DNA of 34,236 nucleotides from Tannerella sp. (GTDB lineage: Bacteria; Bacteroidota; Bacteroidia; Bacteroidales; Tannerellaceae): assembly GCA_031267935.1 (NCBI GenBank), contig JAIRYD010000167.1, forward strand, positions 1-34,236. Reading direction: 5' to 3'. The translations under genes were made by a program, and so were the position numbers. The notes under the pieces are model-generated. The model was given only the letters and a program-made list of their open reading frames with translations. It searched no databases and was not told the DNA's origin. Numbering within the stretch: the first letter of the stretch is position 1; every line of letters starts with the position of its first letter. Of this stretch, positions 27,385 to 33,924 are shown piece after piece.

Positions 27385-28151
27385 AAAACAACGACCTCAT
27401 ATTCGGCATCCGCGCCATCATGGAAGCCCTCCTGGCCGGCAGAGAAATAGACCGGCTGCTCGTAAAGAAAGACCTGCAGGGCGATCTCATCCGCGAACTC
27501 TATGCAGCCCTGAAAGAGCGGCACATACCCGTACAGCACGTCCCCGTCGAACGCCTCAACCGCATCACGCACGGAAACCACCAGGGGGTGATCGCCTTCG
27601 TTTCCGCCGTCGCCTACCACCGCCTCGACGACGTCGTACCCTTCGTCTACGAACAGGGACGCGACCCTTTCATCGTCCTCCTCGACGGCATTACCGACGT
27701 ACGCAATTTCGGCGCCATCGCCCGCACGTGCGAATGTGCCGGCGTCGACACCATCGTAATCCCGGCCAGGGGAAGCGTCTCCGTCAATGCCGATGCCGTG
27801 AAGACTTCGGCCGGCGCCCTGCATGTGATCCCCGTCTGCAAAGAACCTTCCATCCGCCAGTCTGTCCGGCTGCTCCGGGACAGCGGCATCGCCGTCTATG
27901 CCGCCAGCGAAAAAGCGTCGAAGAATTATACCGAAGTGGCGTATGACCGCCCCGTCGCCATCGTCACCGGCGCCGAAGATACCGGCGTAGCCCCGGAAAA
28001 CCTCCGTATCTGCGACGAGATCATAAAAATCCCGCAGTTCGGGACGATCGGCTCGCTGAACGTTTCCGTCGCCACCTCCGTCATCGTCTACGAATGCGTC
28101 CGGCAAAGAATGAAACAGAATATCCAATCATTAAATATCCACGAAAAATGA
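27381..28151 (+). CDS. rlmB: TrmH/SpoU family RNA methyltransferase (RlmB-like)
   Basis: 256 aa from ATG 27381; [79 protein letters not shown]. Confidence 0.92.
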
Positions 28152-28543
28152 AAAAAGTGATCAGTACAACACAGGCGCCTGCCGCCATCGGCCCGTACAG
28201 CCAGGCCATACAGGTCGGAAACATGCTTTTCGCATCCGGCCAGCTCGGGATAGACCCCGCTACGAACGACTTCGTCGAGGGTGGCGTCAAGGAACAGACC
28301 CGACAGGCTTTCCACAATATCCGCGCCATCCTCGGCGAAGCCGGATACACACTGCAGGACGTCGTCAAAGCGACCGTCTTCCTCGCCGACATGGCCGATT
28401 TTGCAGCGATGAACGAAGTGTATGCCGCCCAGTTCGACAGCGATTTCCCCGCCCGATCGGCCGTTGCCGTTCGCACCCTGCCCAAAAACGGGCTTGTGGA
28501 AATCGAGGTGATCGCGGCGCCGAGATTCAAAGGTGGTGTGTGA
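28148..28543 (+). CDS. ridA: RidA family reactive intermediate/imine deaminase
   Basis: 131 aa from ATG 28148; [80 protein letters not shown]. Confidence 0.95.
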
Positions 28544-28784
28544 GAATCGGGAATCGTCTTTTTTTTACCGGCGCGCCGGCTGAGTGACGGTCCAAACATA
28601 AGTGCGCTAAAATGTCCGGTCTGTGCGATTTTTTTCATCGGACGCTTGTTGTTTGAAAAAAAAGTCTTATCTTGCGCCGCAAAATGAGATAACAAAAAAA
28701 AGGATGATTCCGTACATGAAAAATATAAAAACGAAAAACACTTCATGCCGTCTCCACCCGCTTATATGTGAGCAAATGTTAATC

Positions 28785-28793
28785 GGGGGGGGG
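28785..28793 (+). repeat. Homopolymeric G9 tract upstream of susC
   Basis: AATC-GGGGGGGGG-CATACC read directly. Confidence 0.9.
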
Positions 28794-28880
28794 CATACCT
28801 CTTATGTTACAAGAGATTACGGAATAATATTTTTACATTTCGGAAGCGATTACGTACACAACGGTCGCTCCACAGGCAGA

Positions 28881-28927
28881 AACGGCGCTTTGCCCTGTCC
28901 ACACGACAGGGCGAAGCGCCGTTTTTT
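28881..28927 (+). terminator. Strong intrinsic-terminator-like hairpin upstream of susC
   Basis: AACGGCGCTTTGCCCTGTC-CACAC-GACAGGGCGAAGCGCCGTT followed by T-run; 19-bp stem with one non-Watson-Crick position. Confidence 0.85.
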
Positions 28928-29005
28928 ACATGTATGTCCGCGCACGATTACACATATAACTCAGTAAAAATATACTCAGTTTTTAACCATTAATTAATTC
29001 AATGT

Positions 29006-31984
29006 ATGAAAGAAAAAGCAAAATCAGAAAAAAACTTGTTCAGCCTTGTGCGAAGGGCAGGGGTCTTTACCCTGGTGATGAGTTTTTGCATGTCGACAGC
29101 ATTCGCACAAATGACGGTAAAAGGCAAGATTCTCGATGAAACGGGCGAAACCATCATTGGCGTCAACATCCTCGAGAAGGGAACCACGAACGGGACCGTG
29201 TCGGACACGGACGGTAATTATTCGCTTATCGTTCAGAACGGACAGCGGGCGACGCTCCAGTTTTCGTACGTAGGCTACAACACGCTGGAAGAAGACGTCA
29301 ACAGCCGCAGCGTGATCGACGTCACGCTGGCGCCCTCGGTAGTCAACCTGGGTGAAGTAGTGGCGATCGGCTACGGCACGCAGACGCGCCGTCAGATCAC
29401 CGGCTCGGTAGCCAACGTTTCGGAAGAAAACTTCAACAAGGGTATCACGCGCGACGCGGCAGACCTGCTGCAGGGCAAAGTGGCGGGTCTGACCATCACG
29501 AGCGGTTCGGGCGACGTCACGCGCGGCAGCCAGATTCGCCTGCGCGGTACCTCCACGCTGCAGAACGACCAGGGTCCGATGATCGTCATCGACGGCATTC
29601 CGGGCGGCGACATGTCGACCGTTTCGCCTTCGGACATCGAATCCATCTCCGTGCTGAAAGATGCTTCCTCGCAGGCCATCTACGGCTCGCGGGCGGCAGG
29701 CGGCGTCATACTGATTACGACCAAGCGCGGATCGGGTGTGAAAACGCAGATCACGTACGACGGGTATGCCTCGGCAGACTTTGTCTCCAACAAACCGCAT
29801 CTGCTGAACGCCACGGAATGGCGCGACATCAACCGGCAACTCGGTAACGACATTTCCAACATCGACCGCTTCGGCGCGGAAACCGACTGGCTGGGTGAAA
29901 TGCTCCGCACGGGATTTTCGCAGAATCATTCTCTGTCGATGTCCGGCGGAGGTTCGAAAAATACCTACCGCGCCTCGTACACCTACCTGGATCGCAACGG
30001 GATTGCCCGCGACAACTTCATCGAGCGACACAGCTTCCGGTTCCATTTCCAGCAGCGCGCCATCAACGACCGCCTGCGCATCGACATGACGGGCGCAGCC
30101 ACGCTGAGCAACATGCGCTTCCCCTTCCGCGACGACTTCATCCTTGCCTACAACCTGCCTCCGGTCTATCCCGTCAAGAACGCCGACGGCAGCTGGTATA
30201 CGGGCATGTTCGGACAATACGACCAGGGAAATCCGGTACAGAATCAGGAAGAAAACTACAACTTGATGAAAAACAACTATTTCTACGGCGCAGGAAACAT
30301 CCAGTTCGACATTGCGGAAGGACTGAACGCCAAGGTGCATCTCTACAAGAGCATGTTCAACGGCGACCAGAGCCAGTGGCACGCCCCGGGCAACTCGCGC
30401 GGACGCGGCGACAACGGCTATGCACGCCGGTTGGGACAGACGTGGGAACGCGACCTGATGGAATGGACGATCAACTACAACCGTGAGTTTAGCGACAAAC
30501 ACAAGGTAGACGCCATCGCCGGATATTCGTGGGAAAACGACATGTACCAGTCGCAGCAGTCGGTAGCCACCGATTTTGCCGTCAGTTCGATGGGCGCCAA
30601 CAACATCCAGAGCGGAAACCTGCTCAAGGTGGGCGACGTGACTTCGTCGAAGAACGAATACAAGCTCATCTCCTTCTTCGCGCGCGGACATTACAGCTAT
30701 GCCGACAAGTACATGGTAACGGCCACGGTGCGCCGCGACGGTTCGTCCAAGTTCGGGGCCAACAACAAGTGGGGTATCTTCCCGTCCGCTTCGGCGGCAT
30801 GGGGCATCACGCAGGAAGATTTTATGAAGGATGCGTCGTGGCTCAACGACCTCAAACTCCGCGTCGGCTACGGTATCACCGGTAACCAGGATGGCCTGCA
30901 ACCCTACAGGACACTCGAGCTGTACGAAGCCTACGGCACGTATTACGACAACGGCAGCCAGTCCATCGCATACCGCGTTTCGCAGAACGCCAATCCCGAC
31001 CTGAAATGGGAAGAAACGGCCATGTTCAACATCGGAATCGACTTCTCGCTCTTCAACGGACGCGTGGGTGGAACCGTCGAATGGTACGACAAGCGGACGA
31101 CGGACATGATCTACCGCTACAGGGTACCGACACCGACCTTCGTCTACGACCGCATCTATGCCAACGTGGGCGACATGCTCAACACGGGTATCGAACTGCT
31201 GCTGAACGTCGACGTCGTGCGCGGCAAAACGTTCAACTACAACACTTCGATCAATCTCGCGCACAACAGGAACGAAATCCTCCGCCTCTCGAACGACGTC
31301 TATACGACCGACCGCATCTACACCGGCGACCCGTGGATTCGCGGCGCATCGGGCGTCACCTCCCACGTGATCGAAGAAGGACGCCCCGTAGGACAGTTCT
31401 TCATGCTGAAAGTAAATGGACTGGACGAAAACGGCAAGTTCATCATCGAGGATATCAACGGCGACGGACAGTATACGGACGACGACCGCACATACGTGGG
31501 CAGCGCTCAGCCCAAACTGACGTTCGGATGGAACAATACGTTCGGATACAAGAACTGGGATGCCAGCTTCTTCATCCGCGGCACGATCGGCAACAAGGTG
31601 CTGAACAACCCCATAGCCGCATACGGCAACAACAACTACGTCGCCGGCGCCAATGCGATCATGAACGACAACATCCTGAAGTTTACCGAAAACTCCCGCG
31701 TATGCTCGTTCTTCCTCGAAGATGCCTCGTTTGCACGGCTCGACAACATGGCGATCGGCTACACATTCAATACGCAGAAAACAAACTGGCTGAACAGGGC
31801 GCGCATATACGTGGCTGCCCAAAACCTGTTTGTGCTCACCAGCTATAGCGGACTGGACCCCGAAGTCGAACTCTTCCGCGGCAATGCGACCGACGACGAC
31901 GCCGGCCTCTCGCCCGGTATCGAAGCGCGCAACTACTTCCCCAAAGCCCGTTCGTTTACGTTTGGCGTCAATTTAACTTTCTAA
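29006..31984 (+). CDS. SusC/RagA family TonB-linked outer membrane protein
   Basis: 992 aa; signal peptide, carboxypeptidase-D-like domain (VKGKILDETGETIIGVNILEKGTTNGTVSDTDGNYSL), VVAIGYGTQTRRQITGSV plug, C-terminal FTFGVNLTF beta strand. Confidence 0.95.
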   Translation: MKEKAKSEKNLFSLVRRAGVFTLVMSFCMSTAFAQMTVKGKILDETGETIIGVNILEKGTTNGTVSDTDGNYSLIVQNGQRATLQFSYVGYNTLEEDVNSRSVIDVTLAPSVVNLGEVVAIGYGTQTRRQITGSVANVSEENFNKGITRDAADLLQGKVAGLTITSGSGDVTRGSQIRLRGTSTLQNDQGPMIVIDGIPGGDMSTVSPSDIESISVLKDASSQAIYGSRAAGGVILITTKRGSGVKTQITYDGYASADFVSNKPHLLNATEWRDINRQLGNDISNIDRFGAETDWLGEMLRTGFSQNHSLSMSGGGSKNTYRASYTYLDRNGIARDNFIERHSFRFHFQQRAINDRLRIDMTGAATLSNMRFPFRDDFILAYNLPPVYPVKNADGSWYTGMFGQYDQGNPVQNQEENYNLMKNNYFYGAGNIQFDIAEGLNAKVHLYKSMFNGDQSQWHAPGNSRGRGDNGYARRLGQTWERDLMEWTINYNREFSDKHKVDAIAGYSWENDMYQSQQSVATDFAVSSMGANNIQSGNLLKVGDVTSSKNEYKLISFFARGHYSYADKYMVTATVRRDGSSKFGANNKWGIFPSASAAWGITQEDFMKDASWLNDLKLRVGYGITGNQDGLQPYRTLELYEAYGTYYDNGSQSIAYRVSQNANPDLKWEETAMFNIGIDFSLFNGRVGGTVEWYDKRTTDMIYRYRVPTPTFVYDRIYANVGDMLNTGIELLLNVDVVRGKTFNYNTSINLAHNRNEILRLSNDVYTTDRIYTGDPWIRGASGVTSHVIEEGRPVGQFFMLKVNGLDENGKFIIEDINGDGQYTDDDRTYVGSAQPKLTFGWNNTFGYKNWDASFFIRGTIGNKVLNNPIAAYGNNNYVAGANAIMNDNILKFTENSRVCSFFLEDASFARLDNMAIGYTFNTQKTNWLNRARIYVAAQNLFVLTSYSGLDPEVELFRGNATDDDAGLSPGIEARNYFPKARSFTFGVNLTF

Positions 31985-32009: not shown

Positions 32010-33575
32010 ATGAAAAAGATAACAATAATACTGTTTACAGCGATCACTTCGGCTGTCCTCATGCCGTCGTGTACAAATCTGGACGAAAACGTGTATGACC
32101 GCCTGCCGGCAGACGACTTCGGCAGTACGGAAATAGAAGTGAAAGCCCTGATGGGCACGGTTTACAACACGCTGAAGACCTACTGGCCCAGCAACTTCAT
32201 GTATCTCTCCGAATGTGGAGGATCCATGGCGGTAAGCCCCACGCGTATCGGCGGCGACTGGTACGACGGCGGGCAGTATCGCGAAATGTACATGCACACG
32301 TGGACGGGCATGACGCAGGTCATACGCGACTCGTGGAGCGCCGCATCCACCGCCCTCGGCACATGTAACGCCACCATAGACGTACTGAAAAACTCGACCT
32401 TCATGACCGACGCCCAGAAAACCGAAAACATCGCCTCCATGCGCGGCATACGCGCCTTCTGGATCTACGCAATGATGGACAACTGGGGCAACATCCCGCT
32501 GGTCACCGACTATCAGGACAAGGAACTGCCCGCCAACCGTCCGCGTCAGGAAATATTCGACTGGCTGGTACAGGAAGTAAGCGAAATCGCCGAACAGTGC
32601 CCCGACGGAACATACGACAACTACGGCAAATTCACCAAAGGCGCCGCATGCTTCCTCCTCGCCAAACTGTATCTGAACGCCGAAGCATGGAAAGTAAGCG
32701 TATCGGGCAATGCCTGGCAGCAGTGCATCGCCGCATGCGACAGGGTGCTCGCCATGGGATACGTGCTCGAACCGAACTACAAAACCAACTTCGGCATCAG
32801 TGACCGCTCGCGCGAAGGCATACTCACGGTTTGCTTCAGCGAATCCGATACGCAAAACCGGAACCAGCTGATGCTGCGCACGCTCCACTATGCCGACAAT
32901 CTTTCGGACGGATCCAAGTACAGCGCATGGAACGGCGTCTGTGCACAGCCCGACTACGTGAAACTTTTCGACGCCGAAGACCCGCGCTACGAAACCACGT
33001 TCCGCATCGGTGAACGCCGCAACCTGGAAACGGGCGAAATACTGATGACAGGCTATGACGACCCGCTGATCTATACGGTAGACATGAGCCTCATCCCCGG
33101 TCGTGAATACGACGGCGGACCGTGGGCCGACGTCGTGCAGGAAGCCGGCGCCCGTTGCCAGAAATGGCCCTACTCCACCAGCCTGACAAACGCCATGGGC
33201 AACCATTTCCATATCTTCCGCCTGGCCGACATTTACCTGACTAAAGCCGAAGCCCTGCTCCGCTCGGGTGGCGACGCAGCCGAAGCAACACGACTGATAA
33301 ACGTCATCCGCGAAAGAGCCTACGGCAATACCGACCACAACCATGCCACCGTGGACCTGGCGAAAGTACAGCAGGAACGACGTTTCGAACTGGCCTGGGA
33401 AGCATGGTCGCGACAGGACGACATCCGCTTCGGCGATTTCGAAAAAGCCTACTGGTCGGCGTCCAACTGCCCGCGCAACACAAGCGAACACCTGCGGATC
33501 TACCCCATCTCGCAAACGGCATGGCAGACAAACCAGAACCTCGCACAGAACCCGGGCTATCCGTCATTTAACTGA
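32010..33575 (+). CDS. SusD/RagB family outer membrane lipoprotein
   Basis: 521 aa; lipobox AVLMPSCTNLDEN, RGIRAFWIYAMMDNWGNIPLVTDY, IFRLADIYLTKAEALLRSGGDA, INVIRERAYG. Confidence 0.93.
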   Translation: MKKITIILFTAITSAVLMPSCTNLDENVYDRLPADDFGSTEIEVKALMGTVYNTLKTYWPSNFMYLSECGGSMAVSPTRIGGDWYDGGQYREMYMHTWTGMTQVIRDSWSAASTALGTCNATIDVLKNSTFMTDAQKTENIASMRGIRAFWIYAMMDNWGNIPLVTDYQDKELPANRPRQEIFDWLVQEVSEIAEQCPDGTYDNYGKFTKGAACFLLAKLYLNAEAWKVSVSGNAWQQCIAACDRVLAMGYVLEPNYKTNFGISDRSREGILTVCFSESDTQNRNQLMLRTLHYADNLSDGSKYSAWNGVCAQPDYVKLFDAEDPRYETTFRIGERRNLETGEILMTGYDDPLIYTVDMSLIPGREYDGGPWADVVQEAGARCQKWPYSTSLTNAMGNHFHIFRLADIYLTKAEALLRSGGDAAEATRLINVIRERAYGNTDHNHATVDLAKVQQERRFELAWEAWSRQDDIRFGDFEKAYWSASNCPRNTSEHLRIYPISQTAWQTNQNLAQNPGYPSFN

Positions 33576-33580
33576 CAACC

Positions 33581-33718
33581 CGTGAAAAAGTGAAGAATGA
33601 AAAATTAAGAACCGCGGATTTCGAATTGCGACTGCGCAGCGAAATCGAAACAGTCGGGAAAACCGCATTCTTAATTTTTCATTCTTCTTTTCATGTTCAT
33701 TCTTCACTGTTTTTCACG
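33581..33718. repeat. Nested inverted-repeat element between susD and the convergent fimbrillin-like gene
   Basis: 33592-33611 is a perfect 20-bp inverted match to 33668-33687; 33590-33601 matches 33696-33707; 33581-33589 matches 33710-33718. Confidence 0.85.
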
Positions 33719-33924
33719 CACCCTCCGATATAAAAAAGCGTGGCGTCGGGGCGACGAACAAACCGACGGAACTGACAAAATATATCCTTTCCTGTAAAAT
33801 CTCAAGGAAATCCCTAAAATCTCCGAATTCAAGGATTGCAAGGAGCTAAAAGCGGCGTTTACTAATCGTAAAAGTGCATTTTAGCGACGAAGCGTCACGC
33901 AGAAGTCGGTTTTTAGAGGTTTTC

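Follow-up and report, generated by a model that had tools for sequence, protein, structure and literature searches.

The 462-nt gap between the ridA stop codon (28543) and the susC ATG (29006) in the window (the whole 34,236-nt stretch of Tannerella sp. DNA analyzed here) is best read as a phase-variable, translation-coupled transcription attenuator of susC/susD, a reading to which we assign a probability of roughly three in four. Small slips in a run of G's would probably switch the operon on and off, and related bacteria appear to have a switch of this kind at dozens of their receptor operons. A first-pass annotation of this DNA, which put the gap at ~460 bp in agreement with our measurement, had suggested either a small RNA or an attenuated leader at 28650-28930. 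The interval was correct, although the leader open reading frame (ORF) and the G9 tract within it (28785-28793) were absent from that annotation. Comparative sequence data give good support to conditional attenuation, whereas a stand-alone regulatory RNA of ~240 nt is unsupported, since the stretch looks translated, is poorly conserved in sequence, and shares its promoter with susC. A terminated transcript of ~245 nt is expected as the OFF product.

Table 1. Features of the susC leader and neighboring genes (window coordinates)
Feature	Position	Strand	Basis or remark
ridA (RidA/YjgF family)	28148-28543	+	Pfam PF01042; 5' neighbor, outside the switch
Putative promoter: CTTG (28645-28648), 19-nt spacer, -7 box TATCTTGC (28668-28675)	28645-28675	+	Spacing kept in relatives
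Leader ORF, 87 aa at the assembled G9	28704-28967	+	ATG at 28704, 36 nt past the start of the -7 box
G9 simple sequence repeat within the leader ORF, proposed switch	28785-28793	+	Direct sequence
TAA ending the leader ORF at G8/G11 (predicted OFF phase)	28825-28827	+	Computed, G6-G13
Predicted intrinsic terminator, proposed attenuator: hairpin 28880-28924, T-run 28922-28927	28880-28927	+	Fold z = -8.9
TAA ending the leader ORF at G7/G10 (predicted second ON phase)	28991-28993	+	Computed, G6-G13
susC-type TonB-dependent receptor, 992 aa, proposed controlled gene	29006-31984	+	Pfam CarbopepD_reg_2, Plug, TonB_dep_Rec
susD-type lipoprotein, 521 aa, one operon with susC	32010-33575	+	Pfam SusD_RagB, SusD-like_3

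Organization of the leader

The -7-like box TATCTTGC is one base away from the TAnnTTTG consensus. A promoter-like stretch had been noted before at 28652-28683, and the promoter itself appears real, but CTTG at 28645-28648 is a better partner element than the TTTG at 28652 because it lies exactly 19 nt 5' of the box and because the arrangement (C/T)TTG-N19-TATCTTGC is retained in L011 and L014, two relatives found by homology. Transcription is expected to start near 28680-28685. The median distance from a TAnnTTTG-type box to the leader ATG is ~35 nt in 38 leaders and is 36 nt at the window locus, and the leader start ATGATT is kept in L010, L011, and L014. The product of the gene that would be controlled scores 797 bits against TIGR04056 in a profile search, above the cut-off.

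The G9 tract lies 27 codons into the leader ORF. Its length was varied in silico from G6 to G13, and the stop codon of the leader ORF was recorded each time. At G6, G9, and G12 the stop falls at 28965-28967, beyond the hairpin and 41 nt before susC, and at G7, G10, and G13 it falls at 28991, likewise beyond the hairpin and 13 nt before susC. At G8 and G11, translation would stop at 28825, leaving 53 nt between the stop and the hairpin. Two of the three frames are therefore open, so that OFF would correspond to a single tract length in every three.

The hairpin, AAACGGCGCTTTGCCCTGTC-CACAC-GACAGGGCGAAGCGCCGTTT at 28880-28924, is followed by T's that bring the run to six by 28927. A 66-nt piece containing it folds at -42.9 kcal/mol, against a mean of -15.6 kcal/mol for 200 shuffles (z = -8.9), which confirms the earlier observation of a hairpin and T-run between the promoter and susC; a simple terminator scan did not pick it up. 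Conservation of the hairpin had been named as a check, and it holds for position and type, which recur in the genus, but not for sequence. Covariation amounts to one compensatory pair among four close relatives, and in another set the outer helix is replaced (seen by eye); both were judged too little to count.

Proposed mechanism

RNA polymerase would initiate near 28680, and ribosomes would enter at the ATG at 28704 and translate the leader ORF with its G9 tract. At G9, G10, and lengths differing from these by multiples of three, the ribosome would trail the polymerase through 28880-28927, the terminator would be blocked from folding or acting, and transcription would reach susC (ON). Slipped-strand mispairing to G8 or G11 would halt the ribosome at 28825; the terminator could then form, a leader RNA of ~245 nt would be released, and susC expression would be low (OFF). 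The parts of this switch, the dependence of the stop codon's position on tract length, and the recurrence of the anatomy across the genus can be read from the sequence itself. We infer translation of the ORF, slippage of the tract in the cell, and termination at the hairpin. Translation coupling may add to attenuation, as several leaders have an open frame that ends in an ATGA overlap with susC.

Repeat-containing leaders in the genome and genus

When the leader was searched by BLAST in 41 genus genomes, conserved start regions and a G-run appeared in further leaders. In the genome that contains the window, 31 SusC genes exceed the TIGR04056 cut-off, and 9 of the 30 that were inspected have a repeat no more than 500 nt ahead of the start (G8, G9, G9, C8, C9, and four (AG)n). 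The same genome has 56 G-runs of at least 8 and six TTAG(AG)n tracts, four of the latter being located in SusC leaders; by our arithmetic, the chance expectation is ~0.25 in roughly 29 × 400 nt of leader. Other SusC leaders have G8-G13, C8-C9, or (AG)n at the corresponding place. The repeat may thus be G, C, or AG, which suggests that its role lies in the frame and not in its sequence. An invariant G9, as first seen in seven loci, proved wrong, since lengths span 8 to 13. Variation of the tracts is known from near-identical leader copies, which differ in length (e.g., G9/G10; AG tracts of 24/43 or 49/51 nt), as metagenome-assembled genomes give one length per tract.

TTAA+G9 tracts and TTAG(AG)n tracts each occur in 28 of the 41 genomes. 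Neither was found in G003 (a single contig), G007, G011, G012, G028, G029, or G034, and the trait is patchy within the genus. The AG form is restricted to this genus (1 of 16 genera among 125 genomes of the family), and a scan of the whole collection for TTAA(N)CG9 returned mostly unrelated tracts outside the genus. Many contigs (noted at L247, L278, L287, L305, L307, L308, and L314) terminate in a repeat tract or no more than a few hundred bases from one, as though the assembly had broken there.

The same types of repeat also precede genes whose products were judged by eye from their N-termini to be ECF sigma factors (L196, L300, and L326), hybrid two-component sensors (L033 and L240), and HU-like DNA-binding proteins (L034, L197, L198, L267, L286, L288, L297, and L302). 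Repeats ahead of regulatory genes suggest that the switch may operate above the level of the single receptor. In L023 (G006:C5), a G12 tract read by eye appears to lie inside the signal-peptide region of SusC, so that classical in-gene phase variation appears to exist beside the leader type.

Statistical analysis of the leader family

For the window leader alone, openness downstream of the tract is not significant (shuffle P = 0.08), and the case rests on the leader family. The genus has 151 repeat sites, 77 of them with a SusC gene downstream, and 61 were scored as leaders, in a discovery set about half of which was chosen by the motif TTAA+G9. In these 61 leaders, the best frame past the repeat is open over a mean of 83% of the distance to susC, compared with 42 ± 2.7% for dinucleotide shuffles (49% in the best of 300 shuffled sets) and 25% for the reverse strand of the same stretches (Wilcoxon P = 5e-11). 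Sixteen repeat-free SusC genes gave a mean openness of 0.63, although their stretches partly overlap upstream genes and make an imperfect control. In 85% of 60 leaders, versus 14.5% of shuffles, an ORF that begins with ATG and has 24 codons or more extends to the tract.

Of the leaders, 33% have a hairpin plus T-run that folds at -18 kcal/mol or better; among shuffles the figure is 1.3%. Where a hairpin of -15 kcal/mol or lower is present, all 26 leaders have at least one frame that passes it and at least one that stops before it, against an expectation of 39% (binomial P = 3e-11). The assembled phases look random, with 27 ON and 22 OFF where 23.0 ON are expected by chance. Codon positions change equally, with no bias, a result that is reliable for about four pairs, as most of the alignments are chance ones. 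As judged from these comparisons, openness is kept and the peptide is not.

The relatives found by homology (L010, L011, and L014) have a weak canonical terminator or none, and two loci (L123 and L263) have a G9 tract without a leader ORF. Among 45 open leaders, six have no open frame other than that of SusC, and classical in-gene phase variation is possible for those six. The orthologous susC in L012 (G015:C80) has a start homologous to that in the window, its leader being unrelated and repeat free; SusC genes seem to swap leaders.

Alternative explanations

The hairpin could be a mere ridA terminator, with susC transcribed from its own promoter downstream of the hairpin. It does lie 3' of ridA, and the + strand has no second clear terminator after that gene. 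However, inspection of 28928-29005 revealed no TAnnTTTG-like box, 38 leaders have the conserved box ahead of their leader ORF, and a plain terminator leaves the enriched open frame and the repeat unexplained, so we regard this explanation as unlikely. It is quite improbable that the product of the leader ORF is a small, phase-variable protein with a function of its own, effects on susC being secondary. Although most leaders have such an ORF with a precisely placed ATG, the residues after the repeat are not conserved, indels between relatives shift the frame, and codon positions change equally in the few pairs available; the leader ORF product has no Pfam match, and the end of the open frame lies near the next gene however long the frame is. 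A conserved small protein was dropped as a candidate because neither the frame relative to the tract nor the later residues are conserved between loci.

The poly-G tract may also be viewed as a site in the 5' untranslated region for a C-rich small RNA or an RNA-binding protein, its length tuning translation or stability. The position of G9 within the 5' leader and the TTAAC-G tract context common to the relatives found by homology fit such a site, but C tracts and AG repeats occupy the corresponding place in other leaders, which weakens any sequence-specific G-tract element, and neither the open frames that end at susC nor the stops split around the hairpin are predicted by it; we consider it very doubtful. 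A promoter and a terminator do bracket a possible trans-acting small RNA of ~240 nt (28685 to 28926). Sequence conservation is nevertheless limited to the promoter/start region and the G-tract, the remainder varying freely between relatives, and Rfam gave no match at gathering score to leader, riboswitch, or sRNA families anywhere in the window. A discrete functional RNA of this kind is therefore highly improbable.

Comparison with known systems

Beyond the attenuator proposed for the window, we lean slightly toward a broader reading in which much of the outer-membrane nutrient uptake of the whole genus, along with a number of its regulators (ECF sigma factors, hybrid two-component sensors, and HU-like proteins), depends on independent repeat-slippage attenuators, each cell having a random set of receptors that are turned ON once transcription is under way. 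In gut Bacteroidales, surface proteins are known to vary in phase chiefly by DNA inversion. Slippage within a leader peptide, with a terminator opened or closed as the result, would, if true, be a second route to phase variation in this order, and would amount to receptor-level bet-hedging with respect to diet, phages, and competition in uncultured bacteria.

In Helicobacter pylori, the small RNA RepG binds a G-repeat in the tlpB mRNA. As proposed for the window, the G tract there lies in a 5' leader and is variable in length, but it is an sRNA that acts on the mRNA, and no leader ORF runs through a terminator. The flgB leader switch of Clostridioides difficile relies on DNA inversion and Rho-dependent termination; it resembles the proposed mechanism in that phase variation takes effect after transcription start, via termination in the 5' leader, and differs in using inversion and Rho where the window would use repeat slippage. 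Control at the RNA level, of SusC operons or of carbohydrate metabolism, is also found in Bacteroidales with DonS-type cis-antisense RNAs, GibS, and FopS/RbpB in Bacteroides (PMC7366714, PMC11697453). Those are antisense or trans-acting small RNAs without a slippable repeat, whereas control at the window is proposed to be in cis and dependent on translation. The first-pass annotation had invoked the RNA-based control of SusC/SusD operons in Bacteroides, which is documented and is related to the window leader by analogy only.

The closest likeness is to Streptococcus gallolyticus, where repeat-driven attenuation by GCAGA repeats was demonstrated for the pil1 pilus operon, in part with mutants of the terminator, the ATG, and the stop codon (Danne et al. 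2014; PMC3894217). Common to pil1/pil3 and the window are a simple sequence repeat inside a leader-peptide ORF, a premature stem-loop terminator (predicted in the window) ahead of the first structural gene, and a repeat number that places the stop either before or within/beyond the terminator (PMC3894217). The window leader has its repeat in the leader ORF, a predicted terminator before the structural gene, and a stop that is moved across that terminator. With regard to trp-type attenuation, its peptide has no run of one amino acid's codons besides the Gly-Gly-Gly of the tract that might stall ribosomes, and the single minimum free energy fold of the leader has no clear competing helix that might act as an antiterminator. 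The pil1 and susC leaders differ in phylum (Bacteroidota versus Firmicutes), in repeat (G, C, and AG tracts versus GCAGA), in product (a SusC/SusD nutrient receptor versus a pilus), and in the number of loci per genome (many versus two). The pil1 switch is also experimentally established, while the susC switch is proposed from sequence. The susC leaders would represent a pil1-type switch in Bacteroidota, working at many loci through other repeats, and the comparative support for it is good. We found no literature on repeat-based phase variation of SusC, and the sole leader-peptide precedent found is that in S. gallolyticus; repeat-driven attenuators may thus be more widespread.

Additional features of the window

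Two further elements lie close to the genes in Table 1. Close behind ridA is a perfect palindrome, CCGGCGCGCCGG (28570-28581), that has a T-run on its upstream side and is thus no terminator for the + strand. An inverted repeat (AGAATGAAAAATTAAGAA ... TTCTTAATTTTTCATTCTTC) follows susD at 33592-33720 and may be either a terminator or some small mobile element.
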